A stretch of 64,000 nt of DNA from Basidiobolus meristosporus CBS 931.73 (Eukaryota > Basidiobolomycota > Basidiobolomycetes > Basidiobolales > Basidiobolaceae), in assembly GCA_002104905.1 (NCBI GenBank), contig MCFE01000274.1:41866-105865 (forward strand), in the 5' to 3' direction. Below are positions 4,011-64,000 of this stretch, piece by piece. Positions within the stretch are counted from its first letter, which is position 1. The number at the start of each line of letters is the position of its first letter. A model generated the notes under the pieces. The model had not been told where the DNA came from. It saw only the letters and a list, made by a program, of their open reading frames with translations, and did not search any database. Position numbers and translations under genes: made by a program.

Positions 4011-4379
4011 GATCCTGTCAGGATGCTGTCCAAAGACCATTGAGAAACAATTGCACCCCTGATTTCACAAAAACCTAGTCAAAATTTTTCATCACGGCCA
4101 AACATATGTGACTTGTGATTAGTTCTCTGCCAACTGTCTCACTTTCTGATCCAGGACACTCAATCACCTCCTACATTAGTGTACATTGATTGGCTATTGC
4201 CTCTTTTTGATACTCCTTACTTTCTCACTTAACTAATTCTCTTACTTTTCATGCATACCAATAGATTTGTTTCCATTGAAACCTCAGTTGTTTCTCAATT
4301 GCCAATTGTATTGACCTATGCAAGTCCCAATACCCAACACTAATATTAACCTCAACCCCATATGCAACAAGTAACTGCA

Positions 4380-49988: not shown

Positions 49989-50337
49989 TGTTGCAATATT
50001 CTGAGCAGTATTGGAAGTGATGTGGAGAACTAGAGGATTTACATGTTATTCACTTGTAGATTTATTGATCAAAAGTATGGTATTTATACTTTTGATAGAG
50101 TAGAGAAAAAAAATGTGCAGAGTTTGTTAAGAAAGATCCCAAGAATATGTGTGCAAAGTTTGGGGTCTTTTGGGCGACTTTGAGAAAAATAATAATCTGG
50201 GTACCTGACAATTTGGTGAAAATATTCCAAGTAAATCCCGACAAGTAATCTGGTCAGGACAGAATGCTAATCACAGTATAAGATCTATGTGACTAAGTTA
50301 GCATGAATATTTTGGTGACAACTCAATAATTACAACA
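49989..50337 (-). repeat. Solo copia LTR B with CTAAT target duplication
   Basis: A 349-bp LTR from TGTTGCAATATTC to AATTACAACA, flanked on both sides by the same five bases CTAAT (49984-49988 and 50338-50342). The flanks join into the 3' end of an older copia copy. Because a single LTR has a perfect duplication, it is a solo LTR left by recombination. It is of the same subfamily as LTR F. Confidence 0.85.
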
Positions 50338-50342
50338 CTAAT

Positions 50343-50841
50343 TGTGATCTAAGATATTCATATTTGTTACTAGCTAATGGATTGATAAATATGTCTGCAA
50401 TCATTTCATCTGTATGACAGTAGACTAAGCTAGCTAAACTATTCTCTATAGCCTCCCATACAAAATGATGTCAAAAACCTATGTGCTAAGTCCTAGCTTG
50501 AAAAGTGGGATTTCTACTTGATTATCTTGAAATCTTGTATTAGGGGCTTTTTGACATACATACTAGTGTCTAAAAAGCTTTCCTAGTCACATTGCTACTT
50601 TTGTAGCTTCACAGGCTGCCATATACTCTGCTTCAGTAGTGAAAAGTTCCACAGTTAGTGCTTTCTTGAGCTCCATGAAATTGCTCCTTTGCAGTCAGGA
50701 AAGGTGAATCCTCTAGTGGATCTTCTGTCATGGAAGCTAGGTTATCAAATCAGCATCAGAGAATCCCAAAAATTCCTGTTCTAATTCTTATAGATGTACT
50801 TTGAATAAATAGCAGCAGCTCTGCTCAAGTTTTCAAAAATC
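50343..50841 (-). pseudogene. Copia RNase H fragment (older copy)
   Basis: Broken minus-strand copia pol end. It encodes recognisable RNase H pieces: FTTEAEYMAACEAT (the active-site S-T-[TA]-E-[AS]-E-Y region) and SNFMELKKALTVE, parallel to the better-preserved copy at 52,200-52,420. It is cut on the right by LTR C. Confidence 0.6.
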
Positions 50842-51176
50842 TGTTGTAAGAATCTTGGAGATATTGGAAGTGATTAAGAGAATCAGTAGATCATGAGGTT
50901 TTCACTTGCTGATATATTGAATGTAAAAGTAGTATTTATACTCTACATAGTACTGGCATAGAATATATGTAAAATATAGTAAGGAGGGTGCCAAAAATAT
51001 GTGTGCAAAGTTTGGGGCTGTTTGGAGAATTGGGAGAATACTGACCAAGATACTTGTTGGGATAAACCTAGTATATTTTCACTAAAACATCAGGTTCCCA
51101 GAATATTATAACTCTCAAAGACTTGTAGGTAAAGTACCAAGCAACCAAGCTAGAAGAATAGTCAAGTGGAATTATG
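50842..51176 (-). repeat. Copia LTR C
   Basis: A 335-bp copy starting TGTTGTAAGAATCTTGGAGA. Its last bases are mutated (ATTATG for ATTACA). To the right (51,190-51,480) is a short piece of copia pol 3' end, as expected if C is the 3' LTR of yet another broken copy. Confidence 0.6.
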
Positions 51177-51501
51177 TATTTTTAGAACACTCCTACTCAA
51201 CCAATTGTGCATACTGACTAGTCCTCATTGTGACCTAAGACATTTATATTTGTCTCCAGCTAATGGGTTGGTAATTATGTTGGCAATCATTTCATCTGTA
51301 AGACTGTAAGCTAAGCCAACCAGCTCTTCTCTATAGCTTCACATATGAAATGATATATAATATCTATGAGCTTAGTTAAAGCAATAAATTTTGGATCTCT
51401 ACCTATATGTATGCATCCTTCATTATCTTGAGATTGTAGAAAAACTTGTATTTACACCTAAATTTTCACTTAGCTTAGTTGCTTAGATTATTGCTTTAGA
51501 G
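51177..51501 (-). pseudogene. Copia pol 3'-end remnant
   Basis: Minus-strand leftover of a copia pol 3' end with the same purine tract and tail (about 51,190-51,360) seen next to LTR D. It is truncated on the right at a TTAGG-joined LINE 3' end. Confidence 0.5.
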
Positions 51502-51608
51502 TTAGGAGGGAGATAGTTGCCAATAGATTATGACTTTATTTCAGTTGAAACAAAAAAGTCAGCACTGCTGTTGCAGCTTAGATACAGAGTGTGTAGCAGA
51601 GGGGAATT
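51502..51608 (-). mobile_element. Short 5'-truncated LINE remnant
   Basis: About 107 bp. It starts with TTAGGAGGGAGATAGTTGCC and continues actttatttcagttgaaac and cactgctgttgcagcttaga, matching the 3' end of LINE copies 2 and 3 including the last ORF2 codons. It is interrupted at 51609 by LTR D at the base position gaatt|tg. It shows that the LINE family once inserted here, again with TTAGG at its 3' edge. Confidence 0.7.
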
Positions 51609-51944
51609 TGTTGTAAGAGTCTTGGAGATATTAGAAGTGATTGGGAGGGCAAGTAGATTAAGTGGTTTTCACTTAATTATTTATTGAATGTAAGAGTAGT
51701 ATTTATACTTTTACATGGTCTTGGCATTACAAACACGTAGAATAGGTTAAGGAAGGTCCCAAGAACATGTGTGCAAAGTTTGGGACTGTTTGGACAACTT
51801 ATCTAACTTTCATGTTCTGAGTACCTGGTATTTTGGTGAAAATATTCTAAGTAAATCCTGACAAGAAATTTGATCAGTATTCTCTAGGATTTGAAGGTGA
51901 TGATCTAAGTGACTAAGTTGGGTGAATATTTAGGTTGAATTACA
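51609..51944 (-). repeat. Copia LTR D (3' LTR of the best-preserved copia)
   Basis: A 336-bp LTR, TGTTGTAAGAGTC to TTGAATTACA in plus view. The sense strand is minus: it has GTATAAATAC near its middle. Right next to it (51,945-51,975) is a purine-rich tract on the minus strand (GCTGAGCAGGAGTG), the likely polypurine tract priming plus-strand synthesis, followed by the RNase H end of the pol gene below. Confidence 0.75.
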
Positions 51945-51976
51945 GATTTCTACTACACTCCTGCTCAGCTAAATGT

Positions 51977-53868
51977 GCACATTGACTAGTCCTCATTTTG
52001 ACCTAAGATATTCATACTTGTCTCTAGTTAATGGTTTGGTAAATATATCTGCAATCATACCATCTGAAGGACAGTAAACTAAGCTAACTAAGTTACTCAC
52101 TATAGCTTCACATATGAAATGATGTCTCATATTTATGTGCTTAGTTCTAGCATGAAAGGTTGGATTTCTACATAATTGTTTACATCATTGATTATCTTGA
52201 AATAAAGTAATTAGTGTTTTTTGACATAGGCCTAAATCTGTAAAAAGCTTTCTTAACCACATTGCTTCTATTATAGCTTCACAGGTGGCTGTATACTCTG
52301 CCTCTGTGGTAGAAAGTGCTATGGTTGTTTGCTTTCTTGAATTCCATGAAATTGCTCCTTTACAGTGAAGAAAGGTGTATCCTGTGGTGGATCTTCTGTC
52401 TTCCAAGTTTTTCCCCAATCAGCATCAGAGTATCCCACAAGATCCTGTTCTGAACTCTTATAAGTGTATCTTGAGCAGATATCAGAAGTTCCTTTTAGGT
52501 ATCTAAAAATCAGCTTAACTGCTGCATACAATCAGATCCATAGTTCTGATTATGCTGGCTGACAACTCCCACTGAATATGAGATATCTGGATTGTTCAAA
52601 GCATGATATAAATCAGAATACCTACCATAGATTGATAAGGAAAGTCAGGGCTTTCAGATGGCACCTAGCTCTCTTGATTTGGCTGAGTTTTGACCAAGTT
52701 AGGGTTTGTCTCCATTAGGGTAGCTGCCAGTTTACAGTCTTCCATTTGGTACTTCTTTGGTATATCTTGAATATACTTGGATTGTCTTAGGTAATTGTCT
52801 GGGTACTTCTATCTATGGAGAACTTAATCCCTAAGTAGTAACTGAGTTCTCCTCAATTGGACATCTTGAACTCCTTAGATAGGCTGGATTTAGTCTCTTC
52901 CAATGTTGCTAGGTTATTGGTGGCTATAATAAGATCATCCAAATATTGAGCTAATAGAACTGGATTTGCTCTATCTGGCTTATAATATATACTATAGTCC
53001 GCATTACTCCTTTGGAAACTCAAAGATTCCAAAAAAGTATCTATCTTTCAATTCCAGGCACTTGGTGATTATTTGAGACCATAAAGAGACTTTTTAAGCT
53101 TGCAGACCAAGTGGGGGTTATCATGGTCAACAAACCATCAGGCTGGTCCATATACATTTCCTCATCAGGTTCTTCATTTGAAATGCTGTTCTGTCATCCT
53201 TTTGATGAATAAAGAACTCATATCTAGCTGCAATAGCCAATATTAATCTGATGGAATTAAACCTGGCCACCAATGCAAATGTCTCAGTATAGTCAAGTCC
53301 TTTTGTTTGAGAGTATCCTTTGGCCACAACTCTTGCTTTCTATCTCTCAATTGTACCATCAGTCTTGTATTTTGACTTAACGACCCATCTGCATCCAATT
53401 GATTATTAATTGATTGGTAATTTGACCAAGTCCCAAGTTTGATTTTCAATCAGGGCCTGATATTCCTGAGTCATTTCAGATCTCCAAAACATTGTCTGAA
53501 GGCTATTTAGGGCCACTTTTACAGTCTGGGGCTCATCAATATGGACTGAATAGGCATAGGCTAAGTTTGTACCCTCATTGATATTGTATTTGGGCTATTT
53601 CTTGTCCAATTGGATCTCCAGGCATCTAATACTGGAATGATCACTTCTGGGTTATTCCTGGGCACTGCATTAGGCTAAACCATGGTTATAGAGTCCTCTG
53701 GGGTGAAAGGATTTTGATTATTTTGCTCAGATTCAATCCTGACAATTGGTGGACTTTTGATCAGATTTCTTTCATCATCTGAAGTCATTTTTTGTGAAAA
53801 TTTTGAATTTTCATCAAACAAGACATCCCTGTACTTGATAAGACTCTTGGCTTTGGTATTGTAGAGTC
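51977..53868 (-). pseudogene. Ty1/copia pol: reverse transcriptase and RNase H, broken
   Basis: The 3' two-thirds of a copia polyprotein with several frameshifts and stops. In order on the minus strand: integrase/RT linker (53,870-53,500); reverse transcriptase start with GCRWVVKSKYKTDGTIERYK then AKGYSQTKGLDYTETFALVA (53,400-53,250); a poorly kept middle, with the YADD region not visible by eye; then RNase H with LVGYSDADWG (about 52,440) and ALSTTEAEYTATCEAIIEA (52,320-52,265). 5' parts (gag, protease, integrase) are missing; the fragment is cut on the right by a LINE 3' end. Dead copy. Confidence 0.8.
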
Positions 53869-53916
53869 TTAGGAGAGGAAAGTCACCAAGTGGTGAAATC
53901 TTGATTTACCTATGAC
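53869..53916 (-). mobile_element. LINE 3' end fragment, split by a solo LTR
   Basis: TTAGGAGAGGAAAGTCACCA opens the fragment, followed by agtggtgaaatcttgattt: the same G-rich junction and TCACC/GGTGA stem-loop as the intact LINEs. A copia solo LTR (F) is inserted 16 bases further. The remainder of this older LINE copy may continue to about 54,578, but I cannot align its interior. Confidence 0.6.
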
Positions 53917-54264
53917 TGTTGTAATTATTGAATTGTCACCTAAATACTCATGCTAACTTAGTCACATAGATTTTATTCTGTGATTAGCATTTTGTCCTGA
54001 CTAGATTTCTTGTTGGGATTTACTTGGAATATTTTCACTAAATTGTCAGGTACCCAGATTATTTTTTTCTCAAAGTTGTCCAAAAGACCCCGAACTTTGC
54101 ACACTTATTCTTGGGACCTTCCTTAACAGACTCTACACGTTTGTTTCCTCTACTTTATCAAAATTATAAATACCATACTTTTGATCAATAAATCTACAAG
54201 TGAATAACATGTAAATCCTCTAGTACTCCACATCACTTCCAATACTCCTCAGAATTTTGCAACA
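53917..54264 (+). repeat. Solo copia LTR F with ATGAC target duplication
   Basis: A 348-bp LTR in plus orientation, from TGTTGTAATTATTG to TTTTGCAACA, with ATAAATACC as the TATA region. It is flanked by identical ATGAC at 53912-53916 and 54265-54269. It is the inverse of LTR B and the same subfamily. It is inserted in an old LINE 3' region. Confidence 0.88.
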
Positions 54265-54578
54265 ATGACAAGTATCTAAAGAAGTCAAGTTAATCTGAAG
54301 CTATTACTAGAAAGCTAGGTCTAAGAGATATCTTCCTGGTAAGCCAGGTCTGAGAGTTGAGAGGCTGAGTGGTACTATATTTGCTAGTTAGCTAGGTCTG
54401 AGAGAGGTTTCCTGGAAAGCCAGGCCTGAGAAGGGGGAATCTGAATATATCTGAGGTCAGTTGTACTGGTTTGCGGTAGCTGAATTGTGGCTGTAATGGC
54501 CAGAGGACTGAGGGGACTGAGGGGAATTTCTTGGCAATCACTGGCCAGATTAACTAGGCAAATCTGACCAATTAGCAC
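54265..54578. other. Unaligned repeat-rich stretch left of the LINE array
   Basis: Contains three or four imperfect copies of a unit with gctaggtctgagag and cctggaaagccagg (54,305-54,430), then a CpG-poor region. A 64-codon minus frame covers 54578-54384. It is possibly the interior or leader of a decayed LINE copy, but nothing diagnostic remains. Confidence 0.45.
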
Positions 54579-54795
54579 TTAGGGGGGATGATCATCACCA
54601 AAGGGTGAAATCTTTATTTAAATAATAAATAAAGAAGCCAAGTTTGAATATGAATATCTGAGATGCAGGAAGCCTACAAGATAAACTTGGACTTTGCTGT
54701 ATCCCAAATATCCTCAATATCAAAGTCTAGAGGAGAGTGTAGCAAGACTGCTTGTTCACTGTAGTATTTCTTGAGGAAGTTTGTGACTTGAAGGG
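54579..54795 (-). mobile_element. LINE copy 0: 5'-truncated 217-bp remnant
   Basis: This piece has the LINE 3' end (TTAGGGGGGATGATCATCAC, stem-loop, taaataaagatttcacc on the minus strand) and the last 35 or so codons of ORF2 (TNFLKKYYSEQAVLLHSPLD, stop at 54674). The ORF2 tail differs from copies 1 and 2, so it is a distinct subfamily. The 5' side is cut exactly where copy 1's TTAGGGG junction begins, as for a truncated element later capped by another. Confidence 0.7.
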
Positions 54796-54883
54796 TTAGG
54801 GGAGGGAAAGTCACCAAGTTGGTGAAATCTTTATTTGAGTTAAGAACTAATCTAAGTACAAATAAAGAAGCCAATTAAGAGGT

Positions 54884-57733
54884 CTAGAACCTCTCTAATA
54901 AGTAATCCAATTTATGTTTTGTTTCATCTCTAATGTTTGTTTCAATAAAGTGAAGCTCATCAGAGGTAAATATAAAATTCAGGGGTTTTGGGGGAAGTAC
55001 AAATTGTAGATGTTTCTGATCAATATAATCCAAGACTGGAACCCAGCCTGGAATTAGGTGTAGTAGGAAAGGTGTGTGGACTTGTAAGTAGCTCTGCCAC
55101 ATTGATCTTAGATGGTCCTGAGCCAGTAGTCTTGGTTTCTCAGCTTTTTGAAGTTTTGAAGCAAGCTCTGTTACTACAGCAGAGCCAACCAGGGTGTGCC
55201 AGCAAGAAGATCTCAGGGAGGAGTTAGATTGAAGCCATTGTTTGATGGAGGGGTTATGTGATTTCTGAAGTTTGACTAGGAAGGAAGCACAGAGATAGAT
55301 CATTTGGATTTGGTATGGGTAGAACCCAAAAACTCCATTAGTTGCATGGATATAGGGAGATACTGGAAGATAAGGTACCAAGGATCTGATACACTGATGG
55401 AGAAATTTATCCAGGCGGTGAAGTTCTCTGGAGGTTAGGGGTATAATGTGGAGACCAAATTCAAGTACCGGCAGTACATACTGCTTCAGAAGTATAGGGA
55501 TCTTTTGAATTGGAGTGTCTGGAGTGACTACTACCAGAAGCTTTTTGAGAGCCTGTTGGGCAAGACGGATCCTATTATTCAGGTGGAGCTTTGAGTCAAT
55601 CCCATGTTGACAAAACGGCAGACCTAGATATATTGCAGTTTGTTGTGGCAGAATGCTAGTGTTCTGTATAGTTGTAGTGCACCCAATTGGGACTGTCTTG
55701 GAAATTGAGAGTGAGAGGTTGTTGGCAGCCAAGTACTTCTCAATGATGGCAGTGTCTGCTATGGGCTTAGGAGTAGCAATCTTGATATCATCCGCATAGA
55801 GAGTTAGTAGTGGATAGGGAGAGTCTGGTGAGGGGCCTTTTGGAAATAAAGGAAAGTCGTGTAGGAATATCACAAATAGTAAGGGACCTAGTACAGATCC
55901 TTGGACTACTCCATTTGGAACCTCATAAGTCTCTGATGTACAACTTGGATGCAAAATTTTGGCTGAGTTCTCACAAAATAGAGAACGTACAAGAAGGGTC
56001 ATTGGTAGTGTGGTAACTGCTAATAGCTTTCTCCAAAGCAGAGCTCTGTCCACAGAGTCAAAGGCTTTAGTAATGTCAAACAGAATGGTTGGCAATGAGA
56101 ATTGAAGTGAATGATCATGGCTTAGCACTACAGCCATATCCAAGGAGAGTTTAGGCAAGAATCCAAACTGGGAAGGATGGAATGGATATAGTTGAGATTG
56201 CAAGGATCTTGCTATTATAAGCTCAAATATTTTCCGGCAGGTTGGTAGGAGCAAAACTGGCTGGTAAGAACCTGGGAGTGAGTGTTTCCCCTTCCCTTTG
56301 TATAAGGGTATAACATTTGCCTGTGACCAGGCCTTTGGGGTAGTCAATTGTTGGGCACAGATAGAGTAGAATGGGAGAAGTAAGTGACTCATTTTGGAGT
56401 AGCACACCCGGAGTAGATCGTAGGTAATCAAGTCATGTCCAGGTGCAGTATTTGCAGGAAGCTTCTTTAAAATTTTCTCCAGAAGCTTTGCTGAAACCAA
56501 AATTGGAGATGTTGGACTGCTAGATATGTTACCAGTATGGTAGAAAGGAGGAGTGGGATGCACAGTTGAATCAAAGAATATAGGGGCCAGTTTGTCTGGT
56601 GATGGTATACTCCTTGCTTGGGGTCTCATGGCTTTGTATACTCTTGATATAGACCTTGTGGTGGCATTCATATTTACTAAGGGCAAGGTATCCATGATAT
56701 GAGCCCATAATCTAGTATGCTCAGTGATCTGTAGTGACTTGGAGTAGGAGATTGCGCTTTCCAGGAGGTTCTGTGTTTTTGGGTTAGGGAAACATAGGTA
56801 GCTGGAATTTAAGGCAGAAATGATGGATTTCCATTTAAGTTGGTTTGCAGATGGCTTTTGGTAGGACTTGGTGGGCAGGGCCAGACAGCCAGTGATTATG
56901 ATGAAATGCTGGTAAAATAGCCATAATGCATTTACATCATCACAAATCCATGCAGGTAAGCTGGGAAATGCATATTCTGTAAGCAAGGATAGGTAGTTGG
57001 CAAAGTCCTGTGTCTGTGATACTGAAGCTTTGGCTGGCAGGATTGTAAATGGCTGAAGAAGGGTGCCAATTGGTAGGGTTTTTCTGGCAGAAATGATAAT
57101 ATGTATTGGCTTGTGATCAGATTTCTCTAGTGAACCACAGCTGATATCCTCTGGAATGCTTGTAACCTGGTGGATGTACTGTAAGGCAGCAGGAGTAGCT
57201 GTTACCCAGTCAACACAACGTTGAGCTTGCTGAGTGTTTACAGTGACCAGATGGTTTTGTTGGAGGAACTTTGTAAAGTGCTCCTCTTGGGTTCCAAGTC
57301 TGGATGAAATAGTGGTGATATTTTCAGGGTGGGGAATATTTATATCTCCCACTACCATACAAGGGATTGATGAGCTGTTAATGAATTCTGATGTGGCCAA
57401 GAAAATTGCCAGTGTTATGGAGTTAGACAGAGATGGAGGGAGATAGATAATAATGGCTACTATAGTTGGAAGTGTTAGAGCATAGCAGTAATATCCATAG
57501 ATGATGGATACATTTGCTGAGGGTGCAAGCTTAGAAGATGAAAGAGCAACAAGTGCCATTGAGTGAGCTGGGAATTTTGGGTGAGCAGATGAATATGCAT
57601 TCAGTCTAGAGGGAAGTTTTGGCAACTTAACATCAATTAGTAGGATCAAGGAATATTCCTTTTTCAGTAAGTTTTCTAATTCAGCTACAGTTGGAGTGAT
57701 GGAGTTGAAGTTGAGTAAGAGTATGTTCTGTAG
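54884..57733 (-). CDS. LINE copy 1 ORF2: endonuclease and reverse transcriptase
   Basis: An open frame of 949 codons following directly on the ORF1 stop (TGA 57736-57734) in the same frame. It would nick target DNA and reverse-transcribe the element RNA. The N-terminal third is an APE-type endonuclease: the NFNSI start, LIDVKLP, VVGDINIPHPEN and the SDHKPIHI catalytic end. Then comes the reverse transcriptase: VIPLYKGKGKHSLPGSYQPV, QFGFLPKLSLDMAVV, DITKAFDSVDRALLW, PNGVVQGSVLGPLLF and the catalytic LYADDIKI. The C-terminal 200 residues match copies 2 and 3. I see no RNase H domain and no CCHC knuckle. The first ATG lies deep in the endonuclease, so the start must come from readthrough or reinitiation. 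Confidence 0.9.
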   Translation of the reverse strand, partial: LQNILLLNFNSITPTVAELENLLKKEYSLILLIDVKLPKLPSRLNAYSSAHPKFPAHSMALVALSSSKLAPSANVSIIYGYYCYALTLPTIVAIIIYLPPSLSNSITLAIFLATSEFINSSSIPCMVVGDINIPHPENITTISSRLGTQEEHFTKFLQQNHLVTVNTQQAQRCVDWVTATPAALQYIHQVTSIPEDISCGSLEKSDHKPIHIIISARKTLPIGTLLQPFTILPAKASVSQTQDFANYLSLLTEYAFPSLPAWICDDVNALWLFYQHFIIITGCLALPTKSYQKPSANQLKWKSIISALNSSYLCFPNPKTQNLLESAISYSKSLQITEHTRLWAHIMDTLPLVNMNATTRSISRVYKAMRPQARSIPSPDKLAPIFFDSTVHPTPPFYHTGNISSSPTSPILVSAKLLEKILKKLPANTAPGHDLITYDLLRVCYSKMSHLLLPFYSICAQQLTTPKAWSQANVIPLYKGKGKHSLPGSYQPVLLLPTCRKIFELIIARSLQSQLYPFHPSQFGFLPKLSLDMAVVLSHDHSLQFSLPTILFDITKAFDSVDRALLWRKLLAVTTLPMTLLVRSLFCENSAKILHPSCTSETYEVPNGVVQGSVLGPLLFVIFLHDFPLFPKGPSPDSPYPLLTLYADDIKIATPKPIADTAIIEKYLAANNLSLSISKTVPIGCTTTIQNTSILPQQTAIYLGLPFCQHGIDSKLHLNNRIRLAQQALKKLLVVVTPDTPIQKIPILLKQYVLPVLEFGLHIIPLTSRELHRLDKFLHQCIRSLVPYLPVSPYIHATNGVFGFYPYQIQMIYLCASFLVKLQKSHNPSIKQWLQSNSSLRSSCWHTLVGSAVVTELASKLQKAEKPRLLAQDHLRSMWQSYLQVHTPFLLHLIPGWVPVLDYIDQKHLQFVLPPKPLNFIFTSDELHFIETNIRDETKHKLDYLLERF

Positions 57734-57736
57734 TCA
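57731..57736 (-). promoter_or_regulatory. Putative stop-codon readthrough site TGA CTA (copy 1)
   Basis: ORF1 ends TCT GCC TGA and the next codons, CTA CAG AAC, are the start of the endonuclease in the same frame. UGA followed by CUA is the best known efficient readthrough context (used in fungi to extend peroxisomal isoforms of glycolytic enzymes). The same GCC TGA CTA is found in LINE copy 2. It is proposed to produce an ORF1-ORF2 fusion protein at low level. Confidence 0.65.
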
Positions 57737-59050
57737 GGCAGACTCTGAGGTTGCCTGTTCCTGCTGAAACTCTTGCACTGCCCTTTGTAAATTTCCAGAA
57801 TTATTCCACAACTCTTCAAATGGAGCTTGCGTAATGTCTTTCAGGATTCTAATTGCTTCCTCTTTCAAGAAGTAGGCCACATCATAGGTTGGAGCCTGTT
57901 TCTTAATGGCAGCAAAGAGAGCCATAATTGCCATGTGAGCTGGGGGCTTGTTGAATATTCCTGGCTCAGTGTCCATTGACTCTGGTGGAATGATTGTGAA
58001 TTTGGTAGGCACCCAGTTTAGATTTTTTGCCAGATACTTAGTCAATGCAGTGGAGAAGTTTCTGTCTACAATCATTTCTAGGATCTTTCCTCTTCTCCAA
58101 GCTAGGTTAACAATTTTGAAGTGTCAATATTTAGAGAGCGGAATGTATGTCTGATGTTTGATATAGTAGTCCATGGAACATTGGCAAAGTATAGCAAGGA
58201 CCAATTCTGGAGCTGAGGTAAGTTTGCTGGAGGCTTATAGGTAGACTTCCTGGCCGGTTGTGTGGTAGGCTTTAGTGTTTCCAAGGTAGCAAGTTGTGGT
58301 TGAGACTTTTTGGAATTACGTATGACTTTGGAAAGAATTCTGCCAGCAACTGTGTCAGGAATGTTAGTACTCATTGATGGTGCAGGGCCTGGCTCCTGGT
58401 ACTGCTTTTGTAGAATACTTGAGTATGTCTCTTTTTGTTTTCCTTTATCCAATGTGCTATGCCTTGGAATGGGATTTTGGGGAATAGAGACTTCAGGTAT
58501 CAACTCTGGGGTCTGGGGATTGTCCAACATTGTTGCTTGAGCTTCCAGCTTTTCCTCTAAGATTTGAACTCTCTGCTTAAGCTCATCATTTGATGCTATA
58601 AGTGTTGCATTGTTTGGAGCCAGGTCAGGTGTTGAGTTATGAAGGCAGGTTGAGCAGCGTTCTAACTCCTTTGTTTGGTCATCCAACTTTTCATCTAAGG
58701 TTTGAACCCTAAATTTGAGTGCACCATTTGAGGTTAGAAGCTCCAAGTTATCAGCCTGCAACTTCTTTAGATCCCTAAATATCTCAAATATCTGTGCCTG
58801 CAAGTCTTTAGCAGTGATATTTCTGATGGGTACTATTTCCTCTAGGAGTTCTTCTTGAGCCAGGTGAGCATTGGGACTTGAGCACTCTACTGAAGGAGTT
58901 GCTGGAATTTCCTCAATGTCTGACAAAACTCCTTCACTTGCAGCATCAGTTGTATGATTATCCTGAGTAGCAGCAACAACCTCAAGTTCACAAGGACCAG
59001 TTAAAGTAAAACATCTCTTGGGTGGGACTATCTCAAGAGGCTTAGGTGGG
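57734..59050 (-). pseudogene. LINE copy 1 ORF1, one-base deletion
   Basis: The RNA-binding ORF1 protein of copy 1, in two frames: 59050-58102 and about 58123-57734. The first part has leucine-rich coiled coils (LQAQIFEIFRDLKKLQADNL, VQTLDEKLDDQTKELE, RVQILEEKLEAQATML). Then comes a proline-rich linker and a conserved block, KPPANLPQLQNWSLLYFANV, followed after the break by LAWRRGKILEMIVDRNFSTA and a C-terminal PPAHMAIMALFAAIKKQAPT. Comparison with copy 2 shows one base lost near 58,124, which shifts the frame into a TAG. No zinc knuckle. The fold of the conserved block may be RRM-like. No ATG at the 5' junction. Confidence 0.75.
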
Positions 59051-59114
59051 TTAGGGGGGGAGACAGTCACCAACAGGTGAAATCTTTATTTCAGTTGAAA
59101 CAAAGAAGCCAGTG

Positions 59115-61884
59115 CTACTGTTGTAGCTTTGATACAAGAGTGTGTAGCTGAGGGGAATTTGTAGGTAAGTTAATAAGAAGTGATGATAGTTCTTCAGTGC
59201 TCAAGACACTGTTCAGTGGGAAGGGGGGTAGCAAGAGAGGTAAGAATGACTTGTGAACAACATTAATGAGGGGAATGTGATAAGGATTGATATTCATCAT
59301 AAAGGGAGTGTGCTGCTGCAGATATTGCTGCCAAAGGTCTGTCAAGTACTTCAGGTAGGCCAGCTTGGGTTTTTCTGACTGCAGAATAAATTCAGCAAAC
59401 TTCTTGACTTCAGGATCTCCAAGTATAGTTCTCCAGCAGGAGCCAGGTGTTGTGTGGTGTGTTCTCTTCCAGGCCTTAATCAGTGGGTTGTTGCAGTTGT
59501 GAAGTCTGAGGTATAATCTGGTTCTAAGGTAGAGAAGTCTGATCTTATAGGGCATAAACCCAAAAGCACCAAGAATAGCATGTCTGTAGGGGCATTCAGG
59601 CAAATGAGGCACCAAGGAGGTAATGCACCATACTGCAAACTTGTCAAGCTTAGTGCAGTCTCTAGAAGTAAGAGAGAGAAGTGGTAAGCCAAATTCCAGG
59701 ACAGGGAAGACAAACTGCTTGAGTAGAAGGAGGCAGCTGGGAGCTGAAGTTGTAGGAGGAGTAACAGCCAGTAGCTTGTGGAGTGCCTGTCTTGCCAGGA
59801 TAATTCTCTTCTTCAGGTGTGCTCCAGAGTCTAGTCCAGTAGGAAGGAAAGGAAAGCCAAGATATGTAGCAGAAACCTGAGCAGGTAGAGTGGAGTTCTC
59901 CAAGTTGATGGGAGAGCCCAAAGGTACTGTCTTTGCAATGGAAAGCTGGAGATTATTCTTCTGCAGATACTGGTGGATGGTCTGGGAGTCTTGTTGCACA
60001 TTGGAGGAGGATATTCTGATGTCATCAGCAAAGAGAGTAACCAGGCAGTCAGCTGAGAGTCTTGGGAAATCATTCAGGAAGATGGCAAACAGTATAGGAC
60101 CAAGCACAGAGCCTTGAACCACTCCATTAGGAACTGAGAACACAGCTGATTGCTCACTTGGGTGCAGAATTCTTGCTTGTGGATCCAGAAACAGAGACCT
60201 GACAAGGAGGGTGAGAGAGGTACTGGAGAAGCATTGCAACTTGGACCAAAGCAGATTTCTGTCAACTGAATCAAAGGCCTTAGTAATATCAAACAGAACT
60301 GAGGGATACTTGCACTGGAGAGAGTGATCTTGGCTAAGTATGACTGCATATTCCAAGGAGAGGCCAGGAACAAAGCCAAACTGTGCAGGATGAAACTTGA
60401 GGGAGTCAGAGTAGAGCTCCTGAGCAAGCAGAAGCTCAAACACCTTTCTGCAGGTGGGCAGCAGAGATATTGGCCTGTAGGAGCTAGGATCCAGGTGCTT
60501 TCCTTTACCCTTGTACAGTGGCAGAACATTTGCAAAGGACCATTCCTCAGGAGTAGAAAGCTGGGCTGAGCATTGCTGAAACAGTGGAAGCAGAAGTGCA
60601 GACATGGCCTTGGTACTAGTCTTCAGAAGCTCATAGGAGATTGTGTCCACACCTGGAGCAGTAGAGTTGGGAAGCCTCTTGAGCACATTATGGATTCTCC
60701 TTTGATCAAGTGCAAGTGGGATGGGCAGAGTCTTGAAGTCAGGATGAAAGTCAGGAGTTGAGTACTGCTTTGTAGAGAAGAAGATGTTAGCCAACTGTTC
60801 TGTTGAAGGTAACTTCCTGGAAGAGGGCCTCATTGCCCTGTAGCAGTCTTGATACTGTTCTTGTTATAGAGTTGGAAGATTGCAGAGGCAAGGAACTCAT
60901 AATATGATCCCAGAGCTGAGTATGCAGAGTGTGGTGAATTGCCTTGGAGTGGTGTATGCTGTCAGGAGGAGTTTCTCTGTTTTTGGGTTAGGGAAACTCA
61001 GGTAGCTTTGTTGCAGGGCTGAAACAATGGATTCCCATTTTCTTGAGGTAACAGCAGTAGTCTTGCATGGCAGTGAGAGGGAGGCAGACACCAGAATCAG
61101 ATGCTTCACAAAGAGCCAGGCATAGTTGAGATCAATCTGGCAGAGAAAGTAGCAAACTGGCAAGCTTCAAGTAGTTCCCAAAGTCTTTCTTCTGATTCTT
61201 GGTAGCTTTGTGGGTGAGCACAGTAAGTTTTGGCAGCTTCTTCTTCACAACTGGTTGCATAGAAAGGGACCAGGCTGGGTGGTCAGAGGCTCTCAAGGAT
61301 CCTAGCTCAGCTCCAGAGAATTGCTTAACTTCATTCACAAAGTAGAGGGCAGCAGCAGAAGGGCAGATCCAGTCAACACATCTTTTCTCAGATTGAGCAC
61401 CTAGTGCTAGCAGATGGCTTTCTCTCAGGAAGTTCAGTAGGAATGTAGACCTTGGCTTCATTCTTGCAGTCAGAGTAGTCTTGTTCTCAGGATGGGGAAT
61501 GTTGAGATCTCCAAGCAAGATAACAGGTGTCTGATATAGATTGCTGGTATTGCTGAACTTTCTGGCATATAACTTGCACTTCCTGAAGGAGAGACTTGGA
61601 GGCAGATAGCAGAGCACCAGACTGATAGTTGGCAACTGGAGAGCAGCACAGTAAGGGGAGTAAAGAGGAACACAGAGCTGAGGAGTATTGATGGTAGAAG
61701 AGATGAAGCAGATAGAGGAGGTATTCTTTGTTCTAGGAGTAGAAAAGCAATATAGATTAGTCAAAAGTATAGAGGGTAGCTGGACATCAATCAAACACAG
61801 GAGGGAAAATCTTGAAAGAAGTCTCTCTAGAGTTGGTCTTGATGGCTGTATGCTGTTGCAGTTAAGCAACAGAACTTCAGGTAG
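59115..61884 (-). pseudogene. LINE copy 2 ORF2, frameshifted
   Basis: Endonuclease and reverse transcriptase of copy 2. 61884-61132 encodes the endonuclease (LIDVQLPSILL, LLGDLNIPHPENKT). Then at least three frame changes fall between about 61,165 and 60,835. The reverse transcriptase is open from 60833 to 59115: VLPLYKGKGKHLDPSSYRPI, QFGFVPGLSLEYAVIL, DITKAFDSVDRNLLW, VVQGSVLGPILFAIFL and the catalytic LFADDIRI (Phe for Tyr in the YxDD motif, a common variant). Inactive as a whole, though the RT half is intact and nearly identical to copy 3. Confidence 0.88.
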
Positions 61885-61887
61885 TCA
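61882..61887 (-). promoter_or_regulatory. Putative stop-codon readthrough site TGA CTA (copy 2)
   Basis: As in copy 1, ORF1 ends TCT GCC TGA and the endonuclease begins CTA CCT GAA in the same frame, with no ATG near. The stop and three-base context are identical between two copies whose proteins have diverged widely, which argues for selection on the readthrough context. Confidence 0.65.
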
Positions 61888-62699
61888 GGCAGAGGTTGTA
61901 GCTTCTTCAGAGGCAGCATTGACAATGTGACCTGCAGAGTCCCAGAGCTCTTCAAATGGTGCATCACTTAAGTCAGCAAGGAGGGAAATGGCATGGTTCT
62001 TGAGGAAGTATGCCACATCATAGGAGGGGGCTTGTCTCTTGATGGCAGCAAAGAAAGACAGAATGGCAACATGGGCTGGAGGCTTGTTGAACAGTAGAGA
62101 GTCAGAGGATTCAGATTCTTCAGGCACTATCTTGAAGTCAGTTTTCAGCCAGTTAAGGTTCTTCTCCACAAAGGCAACAAATGGGTCAGCAATGTTTTGG
62201 TCTAGGATAACCTCCAGAATCTTCCCTTTTCTCCAGGCCAGGTTGACAATTCTTGAGAGCTGAATATTGCATGCCTTGAGTGCTTTCCTGATGTTGGAAA
62301 TGGGAGTCCAGGGAACTTGCTTCAAGTACACCACAGTCCAGGTAGAAGCTGGTGGTAGGTTTGCTGGGGGCTTGTAAGTCCTTCTGTGTGGCAATGGAGC
62401 TGCAGTAGTCAGATTGGAGTCCACATTCTCAGTAGAGGGTTTTCTTGATGTGTCTTGCTGAATGGTACTGGAGCTGGATGTGCTGATAATTCTTGCTAGA
62501 ACCTTGCCTGCATAAGTCTGAGGTATAGCTGAGGTGACTGTAGAGGTGGTGGCAGCTGGTGCAGGTGGAGAGGCAGAAACTGAAGCAGGAACTGAGGTCA
62601 CCTGGGAGAAGACAGTAGAAGCAGGTTTTCTGGGAGGAACAGAGTTCACTATCCAGTTGTTCTGTAAAACACTGGAGTAGCTTTCTGTGGAACAGAATC
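61885..62699 (-). CDS. LINE copy 2 ORF1 (5'-truncated, otherwise open)
   Basis: About 270 codons of ORF1 read without a break to the TGA at 61887. The open frame continues upstream through the TTAGGG junction into the 3' end of copy 3, but without an ATG. It has a Ser/Pro/Thr/Ala-rich linker (SVPASVSASPPAPAATTSTV), then the conserved domain YKPPANLPPASTWTVVYLKQ, LAWRKGKILEVILDQNIADP and PPAHVAILSFFAAIKRQAPS. It is likely to bind element RNA. The N-terminal coiled coil of copy 1 is absent. Confidence 0.75.
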
Positions 62700-64000
62700 T
62701 TAGGGTTAGGGGGGGGAGACAGTCACCAACAGGTGAAATCTTTATTTCAGTTGAAACAAAGAAGCCAGCACTACTGTTGTAGCATTGATACAAGAGTGTG
62801 TAGCTGAGGGGAATTTGTAGGTAAGTTAATAAGAAGTGATGATAGTTCTTCAGTGCTCAAGACACTGTTCAGTGGGAAGGGGGGTAGCAAGAGAGGTAAG
62901 AATGACTTGTGAACAACATTAATGAGGGGAATGTGATAAGGATTGATATTCATCATAAAGGGAGTGTGCTGCTGCAGATATTGCTGCCAAAGGTCTGTCA
63001 AGTACTTCAGGTAGGCCAGCTTGGGTTTTTCTGACTGCAGAATAAATTCAGCAAACTTCTTGACTTCAGGATCTCCAAGTATAGTTCTCCAGCAGGAGCC
63101 AGGTGTTATGTGGTGTGTTCTCTTCCAGGCCTTAATCAGTGGGTTGTTGCAGTTGTGAAGTCTGAGGTATAATCTGGTTCTAAGGTACAGAAGTCTGATC
63201 TTATAGGGCATAAACCCAAAAGCACCAAGAATAGCATGTCTGTAGGGGCATTCAGGCAAATGAGGCACCAAGGAGGTAATGCACCATACTGCAAACTTGT
63301 CAAGCTTAGTGCAGTCTCTAGAAGTAAGAGAGAGAAGTGGTAAGCCAAATTCCAGGACAGGGAAGACAAACTGCTTGAGTAGAAGAAGGCAGCTGGGAGC
63401 TGAAGTTGTAGGAGGAGTAACAGCCAGTAGCTTGTGGAGTGCCTGTCTTGCCAGGATAATTCTCTTCTTCAGGTGTGCTCCAGAGTCTAGTCCAGTAGGA
63501 AGGAAAGGAAAGCCAAGATATGTAGCAGAAACCTGAGCAGGTAGAGTGGAGTTCTCCAAGTTGATGGGAGAGCCCAAAGGTACTGTCTTTGCAATGGAAA
63601 GCTGGAGATTATTCTTCTGCAGATACTGGTGGATGGTCTGGGAGTCTTGTTGCACATTGGAGGAGGATATTCTGATGTCATCAGCAAATAGAGTAACCAG
63701 GCAGTCAGCTGAGAGTCTTGGGAAATCATTCAGGAAGATGGCAAACAGTATAGGACCAAGCACAGAGCCTTGAACCACTCCATTAGGAACTGAGAACACA
63801 GCTGATTGCTCACTTGGGTGCAGAATTCTTGCTTGTGGATCCAGAAACAGAGACCTGACAAGGAGGGTGAGAGAGGTACTGGAGAAGCATTGCAACTTGG
63901 ACCAAAGCAGATTTCTGTCAACTGAATCAAAGGCCTTAGTAATATCAAACAGAACAGAGGGATTCTTGCTCTGGAGAGAGTGATCTTGGCTAAGTATGAC
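62700..64000 (-). mobile_element. LINE copy 3 (3' part, runs off the window)
   Basis: The 3' end of a third copy, joined to copy 2 by CTTAGGGTTAGGGGGGGGAG. The 1.3 kb present is almost identical to 59051-60350, with only a handful of single-base differences (for example at 63,107, 63,187 and 63,687), so the two copies are of very recent common origin. Confidence 0.9.
62771..64000 (-). CDS. LINE copy 3 ORF2, reverse transcriptase (partial)
   Basis: An open frame from the right window edge to a stop at 62771, about 409 codons. It begins inside the RT finger region (VILSQDHSLQSKNPSVLFDI), carries LFADDIRI and ends VSMLQQ. No break is seen, unlike copy 2, so this may be part of an intact element. 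The endonuclease and ORF1 lie beyond the window. Confidence 0.9.
   Translation of the reverse strand, partial: VILSQDHSLQSKNPSVLFDITKAFDSVDRNLLWSKLQCFSSTSLTLLVRSLFLDPQARILHPSEQSAVFSVPNGVVQGSVLGPILFAIFLNDFPRLSADCLVTLFADDIRISSSNVQQDSQTIHQYLQKNNLQLSIAKTVPLGSPINLENSTLPAQVSATYLGFPFLPTGLDSGAHLKKRIILARQALHKLLAVTPPTTSAPSCLLLLKQFVFPVLEFGLPLLSLTSRDCTKLDKFAVWCITSLVPHLPECPYRHAILGAFGFMPYKIRLLYLRTRLYLRLHNCNNPLIKAWKRTHHITPGSCWRTILGDPEVKKFAEFILQSEKPKLAYLKYLTDLWQQYLQQHTPFMMNINPYHIPLINVVHKSFLPLLLPPFPLNSVLSTEELSSLLINLPTNSPQLHTLVSMLQQ

Follow-up and report, generated by a model that had tools for sequence, protein, structure and literature searches.

The window, that is, the whole stretch of 64,000 nucleotides analysed here, carries in its right part a series of retroelements lying on the minus strand. 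The first of these is an old, degenerate 3' end of LINE family A (51502..51617) with the joint TTAGGAGGG, assigned by its sequence and by positions 51534-51617, which resemble the 3' end of family A. It is followed by the 3' end of a SINE (family D, 53869..53916; SINE positions 479-516 align by BLAST with 53879-53916) with the joint TTAGGAGAGG. This SINE is interrupted by inserted repeat DNA of no assigned strand (53917..54264), which is probably LTR-like and partly similar to other repeats of the genome and of the window. The remainder of the SINE (54265..54577; SINE positions 171-483, 90% identity) is cut at its 5' side by the next junction. From 54579 on the elements abut directly. A 217 bp element of a third family, family C (54579..54795), recognised from the sequence and likewise 5'-truncated, has the joint TTAGGGGGGATGATCATCACC. 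Next to it lies a copy of LINE family B (54796..59041), delimited by its 3' joint GGGTTAGGGG and its open frames and truncated in ORF1. The telomeric joint TTAGGTGGGTTA (59042..59053, plus strand) stands ahead of the G-run of the first copy of LINE family A (59051..62699), which is identified by open frames and profile matches, is 5'-truncated and has its coding frame in pieces. The joint TTAGGGTTA (62700..62708, plus strand), a full 9-nt seed, precedes the G8 of a second family-A copy (62706..64000, identified by sequence and similarity), within which the contig (C507, 105,865 bases) ends at position 64000.

An earlier note on this DNA had described six LINE 3' ends that all meet TTAGG on the plus strand. 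The contacts are indeed there, with TTAGG starting at 51502, 53869, 54579, 54796, 59051 (also 59042) and 62706 (also 62700), but not all of the elements are LINEs. The assignment of 53869 to a LINE was rejected, this being the interrupted SINE-like element of about 516 bp, and 54579 belongs to the third family. TTAGG occurs 55 times on the plus strand of the window and is expected in a 13-nt stretch with a probability of about 0.02, even when the higher density in 50-64 kb is used; consequently, contacts at six of six ends are not due to chance. The order of the array, with 3' ends to the left and 5' ends to the right, was found as described before, and so was truncation at the following junction, which affects the SINE, the family-C element, LINE B and the first copy of LINE A.

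The family-B copy contains an open frame of 949 aa (ORF2, 54884..57733) with a reverse transcriptase (RVT_1, E 6.9e-18; alignment) and, upstream of it, the endonuclease motifs GDINIPH and SDHKP, found by eye. The endonuclease glutamate is apparently replaced by D in a putative LIDVKL motif, which was assigned by eye by comparison with L1. ORF1 (58102..59041, open frame continuing to 59085) has lost its 5' end; it is presumably gag-like and matched no Pfam family above the cut-off. In the first family-A copy, the piece 59115-60863 matches RVT_1 at 1.4e-25, and the piece 61132-61884 matches Exo_endo_phos_2 at 9.9e-5, under the Pfam cut-off. All five members scanned contain RVT_1, as expected of non-LTR elements, and among solved structures the nearest relative of the reverse transcriptase is L1 ORF2p. 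The match to an APE-type endonuclease (Exo_endo_phos_2) is weak and was obtained for two of the five scanned proteins (best 3e-6); a search of solved structures with the endonuclease piece gave nothing at E 1. Structure predictions for ORF2 from five sequences were set aside at a mean pLDDT of 38.9.

The element called SINE here is a candidate SINE that looks tRNA-like, is found in arrays together with the LINEs and has the 3' hairpin sequence and the C-tail in common with them. A B-box-like sequence, judged by the general box consensus, GGTTCAAATC, is present in all 27 copies treated as full-length; ARAGORN detected no tRNA in the SINE. The fold of the family-A 3' end leaves the C-tail free (z -4.47), and the SINE 3' fold by itself is weak (z -1.12).

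The genome of 89 Mb contains 1554 element 3' ends, set against 1268 matches, some of them counted twice, of TTAGG within 14 nt of a 3' end; most of the 3' ends lie next to TTAGG. The host is placed by a SUV3-like helicase, for which Calcarisporiella thermophila gave the best named match (59%). On 11 contigs of 169-345 kb, all 38 3'-end motifs lie at most 22.2 kb from the contig end that their 5' side faces, and 28 of the 30 family-A copies with known contig size lie at most 12 kb from the end they face. The 5' side thereby points to the near end in 38 of 38 motifs and 28 of 30 copies. The two exceptions (on C558 and C726) are situated far from the faced end in repeat-rich DNA; their 5' sides, read for 5.5 and 3.6 kb, both enter other repeats. 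Contig ends serve here as a stand-in for chromosome ends: of 19 right ends read, namely C507 and 18 others selected for bearing LINEs, 13 terminate in (TTAGGG)n. The strand ratio of 1429:125 was rejected as a proof of polarity, as the contigs bearing telomeres are largely of one orientation (7428 to 81).

The attachment of the elements to chromosome ends, which the earlier note had predicted, is thus strongly supported by their confinement to ends with a fixed polarity. The telomere expected to the right was found elsewhere in the genome, at the TTAGGG-capped ends, but not on C507; this contig stops inside a LINE and cannot itself be traced to a telomere. Among the 42 matches listed, for which 40 of 872 candidates were scored, no identical copy of its last junction is present elsewhere; C318 has the one other match that extends across the junction (87% identity), and the remaining listed matches cover a single side. 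The note had also named a telomere repeat other than TTAGGG, or mostly internal copies with ordinary target-site duplications and the same CCCTAA tail, as grounds against its reading. The repeat of this genome is TTAGGG and, as far as the tests go, the copies are placed close to ends and the joints vary in length. Telomerase_RBD was detected above cut-off in two pieces, one of them with an in-frame TAG, representing a telomerase gene fragment.

The length of the joints was determined at 93 distinct junctions, taken from LINE-bearing ends and from loci that had been picked for resembling family A; 111 were collected and 15 duplicates, two without a G-run and one near a locus edge were dropped. 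The telomere sequence measures at least 3 nt in 83 junctions, at least 9 in 17 and at least 10 in six. Genome-wide, 110 of the 653 family-A copies have a joint of at least 9 nt and 28 of these 110 one of at least 10 nt. This last fraction, 25%, is about that of one chance base, and consequently the templated part ends at 9 nt. An earlier drop is present as well, since only 23 of 41 joints survive from 7 to 8 nt. Nine-nucleotide joints were found in both LINE A (five, with two longer; n=43) and the SINE (six, with three longer; n=31); in family B none of 13 joints reaches 9 nt. In 9 of the 653 family-A copies the inner side carries at least three exact repeats, a count that demands exact repeats and misses tracts of variant ones. 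On the 13 telomere-capped contigs, the joint of the outermost copy is at most 9 nt long in 12 cases and 19 nt in one, and the terminal telomere tracts measure 151-231 bp at ten ends and 47-99 bp at three. Real telomere tracts are seldom found at the joint, an observation that is new here. The proposal that a TTAGGG 3' end primes reverse transcription agrees with polarity and end attachment, but an established telomere as the primer does not agree with joints mostly of 9 nt or less. TTAGG as a fixed part of the element was likewise rejected, as the joint length varies. In 10 of the 93 joints the telomere sequence is shorter than 3 nt, and hence the seed is not obligatory. The six joints above 9 nt, with a maximum of 41 nt, would not be produced by one round of telomerase.

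At their start the joints overlap with the element they interrupt. For the 46 usable junctions (24 of the 93 without a continuing copy, 12 at SINE 5' ends and 11 poorly anchored were left out) the mean overlap is 2.07 nt and 61% have at least 2 nt, values somewhat inflated by taking the longest match across several copies. The simulated overlap has a mean of 0.76 nt with 19% at 2 nt or more, and the best of 5000 null samples reached 1.48 and 48%. A limit of 9 nt together with about 2 nt of microhomology is what one would expect if a 9-10-nt CUAACCCUAA-like template were copied once. The G-run following the joint has a different modal length in each family (7 in A, 4 in B, 5 in D) and the joint limit is similar in LINE A and the SINE, suggesting that the C-run belongs to the element and the seed does not.

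Taken together, we consider it reasonably probable that LINEs A and B, telomere-attaching non-LTR elements, and a SINE sharing their 3' end use telomerase-seeded end-priming in an early-branching fungus that possesses a telomerase gene. The element RNA would terminate in a hairpin (UUUCACC-loop-GGUGA) followed by the C-run. The exposed chromosome end could be any sequence, in many cases that of the preceding element's 5' end, and its 3'-OH would be extended by a single copy of the telomere template, complete or partial and no longer than TTAGGGTTAG. The seed would most likely be added in one round by the host telomerase, aligned via a few nucleotides of microhomology. The terminal TTAG/GGG would then pair with the C-run in this RNA and prime reverse transcription outward, and the cDNA would become the new chromosome end, either to enter another cycle or to be capped by a telomerase tract no longer than about 230 bp. 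End-priming instead of nicking is suggested by these data, and telomerase appears to be the source of the seed. More tentatively, telomerase may begin to heal the exposed end and pause after the first template copy, and the LINE or SINE particle may take over the 3' end before telomerase can go on, which would amount to telomerase-primed retrotransposition.

The seed could also be copied from a short telomere-complementary tail of the element RNA itself (about UAACCCUAA), aligned by microhomology on the exposed end. In that case the LINE would do the work of telomerase in a single shot, and template jumping could generate the head-to-tail copies. The RNA of SART1 reportedly has such a telomere-like 3' tail. 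A fixed RNA tail would account equally well for the right-anchored joint, the 9-nt limit and the microhomology; four of the seven usable joints of exactly 9 nt have zero overlap with the element, as though the entire tail had been copied, and 17 of the 27 full-length SINEs lead via just TTA into the following G-run, an outcome that template jumping would produce. However, the full 9-nt tail is present in the DNA of just 110 of the 653 family-A copies, so that most could not transmit it, and the similar limit in LINE A and SINE would need the same tail on unrelated transcripts. We regard this origin of the seed as rather unlikely.

With an endonuclease domain in the elements nicking may occur, and to that extent the domain counts against end-priming. 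The elements might insert at nicks in existing telomere tracts, as TRAS/SART do, after which trimming or renewed cutting would have shortened the inner tract below target size; the APE-type matches, obtained for two of the five proteins scanned as well as for the second copy in the window, and the polarity of the TTAGGG strand would suit this. Yet inner tracts of at least three exact repeats in only 9 of 653 copies stand against terminal tracts of mostly 151-231 bp, the joint of the outermost copy does not exceed 9 nt in 12 of 13 cases, and trimming predicts neither the 9-nt step nor the microhomology, which makes this route improbable. It is more improbable still that these are ordinary subtelomeric repeats, spread by break-induced replication and gathered by assembly breaks, with TTAGGG as the element 3' end. 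Contigs do break at repeats, the orientation counts are biased so that the strand ratio alone proves nothing, and 15 of 111 junctions are duplicates. Nevertheless, thirteen contig ends have real telomere tracts past the array, the 60-nt flanks are distinct and the break points differ across the 93 junctions, and a joint below 3 nt in 10 of 93 cases and otherwise of variable length is not a fixed element part.

Several known systems stand close to the present one. Athena and the fungal Coprina, endonuclease-deficient Penelope-like elements, are said to form truncated head-to-tail copies with short telomere stretches between them, and end-priming has reportedly been proposed for them. Penelope-like elements belong to a different reverse transcriptase family and are not known to have an APE domain, and in this they appear to differ from the elements here with RVT_1 and an APE-type match. 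HeT-A/TART and Zepp share with the present elements a polarity of outward growth. Flies are not known to have telomerase repeats; in contrast to the telomerase-less host of HeT-A/TART/TAHRE, the present genome has Telomerase_RBD pieces and (TTAGGG)n ends. TRAS/SART have a specific endonuclease and insert within long tracts, with many repeats on both sides, whereas at least three exact inner repeats were found here in 9 of 653 copies. TRAS/SART (Bombyx), Zepp (Chlorella) and HeT-A/TART/TAHRE (Drosophila) are telomere-associated retrotransposons, and the cited excerpt describes neither a one-template seed nor a telomeric SINE for them (PMC10088271).

According to the cited excerpt, MoTeR1 and MoTeR2 of Magnaporthe oryzae lie head-to-tail at telomeres with their 5' ends facing the chromosome end, include 5'-truncated copies and are separated from each other by half a unit to over 20 units of (TTAGGG)n; a putative restriction-enzyme-like endonuclease is described, TTCGGG(TTTGGG)n stands at one end, and the partner element probably uses the MoTeR1 enzyme (PMC7367193). 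The arrangement, 5' truncation, intervening telomere sequence and partner element are as in that excerpt; the elements here differ from it in their APE-type match, in joints that mostly stop at about 1.5 repeats and in an apparently tRNA-like candidate SINE as partner. FoTeRs of Fusarium oxysporum are described, in the portion cited, as non-LTR elements of chromosome ends that are flanked on either side by telomeric motifs, a likeness to the present elements, but with about 3-8 TAACCC copies on the 3' side (PMC12857005), whereas three or more are present in 9 of 653 family-A copies. CNL1 of Cryptococcus neoformans also forms subtelomeric arrays with truncated copies; unlike the elements here, it is grouped in the cited text with R2 elements and MoTeR, and target duplications in a reporter gene are mentioned (PMC12810828). 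Judged by the APE-type match, the elements here do not appear to fall with MoTeR, FoTeR and CNL1, which are CRE/R2-like with a REL endonuclease and no APE. Among the open-licence papers searched, none showed a telomeric LINE or SINE of such a type in an early-branching fungus.

Telomerase and the reverse transcriptases of retrotransposons are related enzymes, and how the one came to replace the other at the ends of chromosomes, of which flies are an example, is an open question. Fungal telomere elements also include Penelope-like ones. If our reading is true, an APE-type LINE and its SINE partner would join the fungal telomere elements, which in the excerpts of the open-licence literature are otherwise MoTeR-like. 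The sampled joints would then represent about one telomerase-like template copy followed by attachment of the LINE, and the hand-over between telomerase and LINE would be directly testable in this fungus. Given how short the scrap of telomere sequence at the joint is, retrotransposition may be coupled with telomere synthesis in a single reaction.

All six TTAGG joints that the earlier note had placed at LINE 3′ ends were found where it had put them. At 53869 the joint stood but the element was not a LINE; it is a SINE-like element split by other repeat DNA. The family B copy of the array (54796–59041, minus strand) contains a 949-aa open ORF2 and an ORF1 cut at its 5′ side. Family A, which resembles it, is present in two copies on the same strand (59051–62699 and 62706–64000), the first with a broken coding frame. 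The family B ORF2 matches RVT_1 (Pfam, E 6.9e-18); Pfam found no endonuclease domain match in this ORF2 of the window, and its endonuclease motifs were recognized by eye only. The endonuclease piece of family A gave a weak Exo_endo_phos_2 match (9.9e-5), below the Pfam cut-off. Among five related proteins scanned, all five contain RVT_1 and two Exo_endo_phos_2 (best 3e-6). Four close relatives, none of them named, share 45–63% identity among the 7992 candidates scored from a database of 5.8 billion proteins. By eye, both families have the D of LIDVKL/LIDVQL at one endonuclease position (54884–57733 and 61132–61884, minus strand), where L1 has an E. Both LINE bodies contain the sequence GGGTTAGGG, which reads CCCTAACCC on the element strand (56781–56789 and 60985–60993); in family B it falls within the stretch encoding the conserved FPNPKT. 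It is also present near the 5′ end of the SINE-like element (its positions 27–35).

A SUV3-like helicase gene is located left of the array. Its best match with a name comes from Calcarisporiella thermophila (59% identity), ahead of Geosiphon, Paraglomus, and Mucorales; the host is therefore an early-branching fungus. The region adjoining the array (50000–54579) is AT-rich (36% G+C) with decayed repeats, parts of which resemble, by eye, a decayed Ty1/copia polyprotein with LTR-like repeats.

The SINE-like element, the third array member, comprises about 516 bp and shares its 3′ hairpin and C-tail with the LINEs. In the loci collected, 27 copies that reach from this hairpin as far as a 5′ end motif were counted as full-length; 11 more 3′ ends were set aside, having no 5′ end motif within 700 bp or running past the locus edge. 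A B-box-like GGTTCAAATC is present in all 27, and ARAGORN called no tRNA in the SINE copies. At one locus (C96:6400–13400) five SINEs stand in tandem at 526–534-bp spacing, with 3′ ends near locus positions 4258, 4783, 5311, 5845, and 6376 and successive copies separated by little beyond TTAGG or a single repeat; the exact 5′ end motif marks three of the five as full-length.

The genome searched comprises 89.0 Mb in 1311 contigs. The 3′-end motif of the elements occurs 1429 times forward and 125 times reverse, a ratio that is not evidence alone because telomere-bearing contigs mostly share one direction ((TTAGGG)4: 7428 forward, 81 reverse). Position was assessed on the first 100 motif places listed, of which 62 fall on contigs no longer than about 20 kb (including C95, its size assumed) that cannot test position. 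The other 38, on 11 contigs of 169–345 kb, are all at most 22.2 kb away from the end that their 5′ side faces (median 4.2 kb). Likewise, 28 of 30 family A copies on contigs of known size are no farther than 12 kb from that end, and the two exceptions (C558 and C726) are embedded in repeat-rich DNA. The elements thus map as the earlier note had expected of a LINE that attaches to chromosome ends. It had also predicted a telomere to the right of the array. The contig itself (C507, with the window at its bases 41866–105865) stops at the right end of the window; this end is one of 19 right ends read, selected for bearing LINEs, and the prediction held for 13 of these, which are closed by a telomere tract (at least 151–231 bp in ten and at least 47–99 bp in three), whereas six stop without one. 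Several contigs of 17–20 kb (C21–C110 and others) also end on the right in (TTAGGG)n. At about 24–37 per end, the 7428 (TTAGGG)4 matches suggest some 200–300 telomeric ends, high for 89 Mb; the surplus perhaps reflects different nuclei or separately assembled telomere reads. C291 (161 kb) carries an outward-facing LINE 3′ end near each terminus, at 2142 (reverse) and 156629 (forward), and is possibly a complete small chromosome.

The joint, meaning the telomeric stretch that precedes the G-run of the element, is short. Of 111 3′ ends, 15 duplicates, two without G-run, and one near an edge were dropped, which left 93 junctions whose 60-nt flanks are distinct. The joint measures 1–2 nt in 10, 3–9 nt in 77, and 11, 13, 19, 20, 25, and 41 nt in the remaining six. 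Step-wise survival is 0.56–0.91 from 3 to 9 nt, lowest from 7 to 8, and then 0.35 (6/17). The limit is comparable in LINE A and the SINE, and family B has no joint above 8 nt (13 junctions). On 12 of 13 telomere-capped contigs the joint of the outermost copy, the one with the best chance of being young, does not exceed 9 nt; on the other it measures 19 nt. Genome-wide, 110 of 653 family A 3′ ends have at least TTAGGGTTA plus GGG, 28 have one base beyond TTAGGGTTA, and nine have three or more exact repeats. A single chance base would by itself reduce 110 to roughly 28, and the copied part therefore stops at 9 nt. Such a fall is not expected if the joints were what is left of long tracts.

Homology guides where the joint starts. 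Another copy gives the continuation of the interrupted element at 69 junctions, 46 of them usable after exclusion of 12 SINE 5′ ends and 11 poorly anchored cases. The overlap between joint and interrupted element averages 2.07 nt versus 0.76 nt simulated, and reaches 2 nt or more in 61% versus 19%. Joints of exactly 9 nt show smaller overlaps (0, 0, 0, 0, 2, 2, 4). The commonest G-run is 7 in family A, 4 in family B, and 5 in the SINE. As the G-run is family-specific and the joint limit similar in LINE A and the SINE, we take each RNA's own C-tail to be the template of the G-run, and the seed, the telomere bases at the joint, to have a source common to the elements. In the predicted fold, the family A 3′ end forms two hairpins and leaves the C-tail free (z −4.47), and one hairpin is retained in the SINE (z −1.12).

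MoTeR elements are likewise arranged head-to-tail with 5′ ends outward, but the tracts separating them range from half a unit to more than 20, and their putative endonuclease is restriction-enzyme-like (PMC7367193). In one new MoTeR insertion, just one TTAGGG separated the element from the subtelomere, and no more than two repeats intervened at stable MoTeR ends (PMC7367193), so that short joints as such are already known there. FoTeR has about 3–8 TAACCC copies on its 3′ side (PMC12857005), and CNL1 is grouped with R2/MoTeR (PMC12810828). Other telomere elements are TRAS/SART, Zepp, GilM/GilT, Tx1, and Athena (PMC10088271). In mammals, telomerase adds interstitial telomere repeats at breaks, with microhomology (PMC2246262), and dysfunctional telomeres can receive L1 away from its usual endonuclease sites (PMC4700185). 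Our searches of the open-licence literature brought up no account of a seed one template long, of a SINE at telomeres, or of an APE-type LINE at the telomeres of a fungus.

We considered two sources for the seed. Most likely it is made by host telomerase: a Telomerase_RBD match above cut-off, in two pieces, one with a stop, shows that the genome has at least part of a telomerase gene. Alternatively, a tail on the element RNA could template the seed; we rank this source below telomerase. The position and polarity of the copies, the seed limit, and the homology are observed, whereas priming by chromosome ends and telomerase as the maker of the seed are inferences. With either source, an exposed chromosome 3′ end would be extended across one 9–10-nt telomere template, and its terminal G's would pair with the C-tail of a LINE or SINE RNA. 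The LINE enzyme would then copy outward until it drops off, which would account for the 5′ truncation. Directly after 17 of the 27 full-length SINEs comes TTA and then the next element's G-run; no full telomere is therefore needed between successive attachments.
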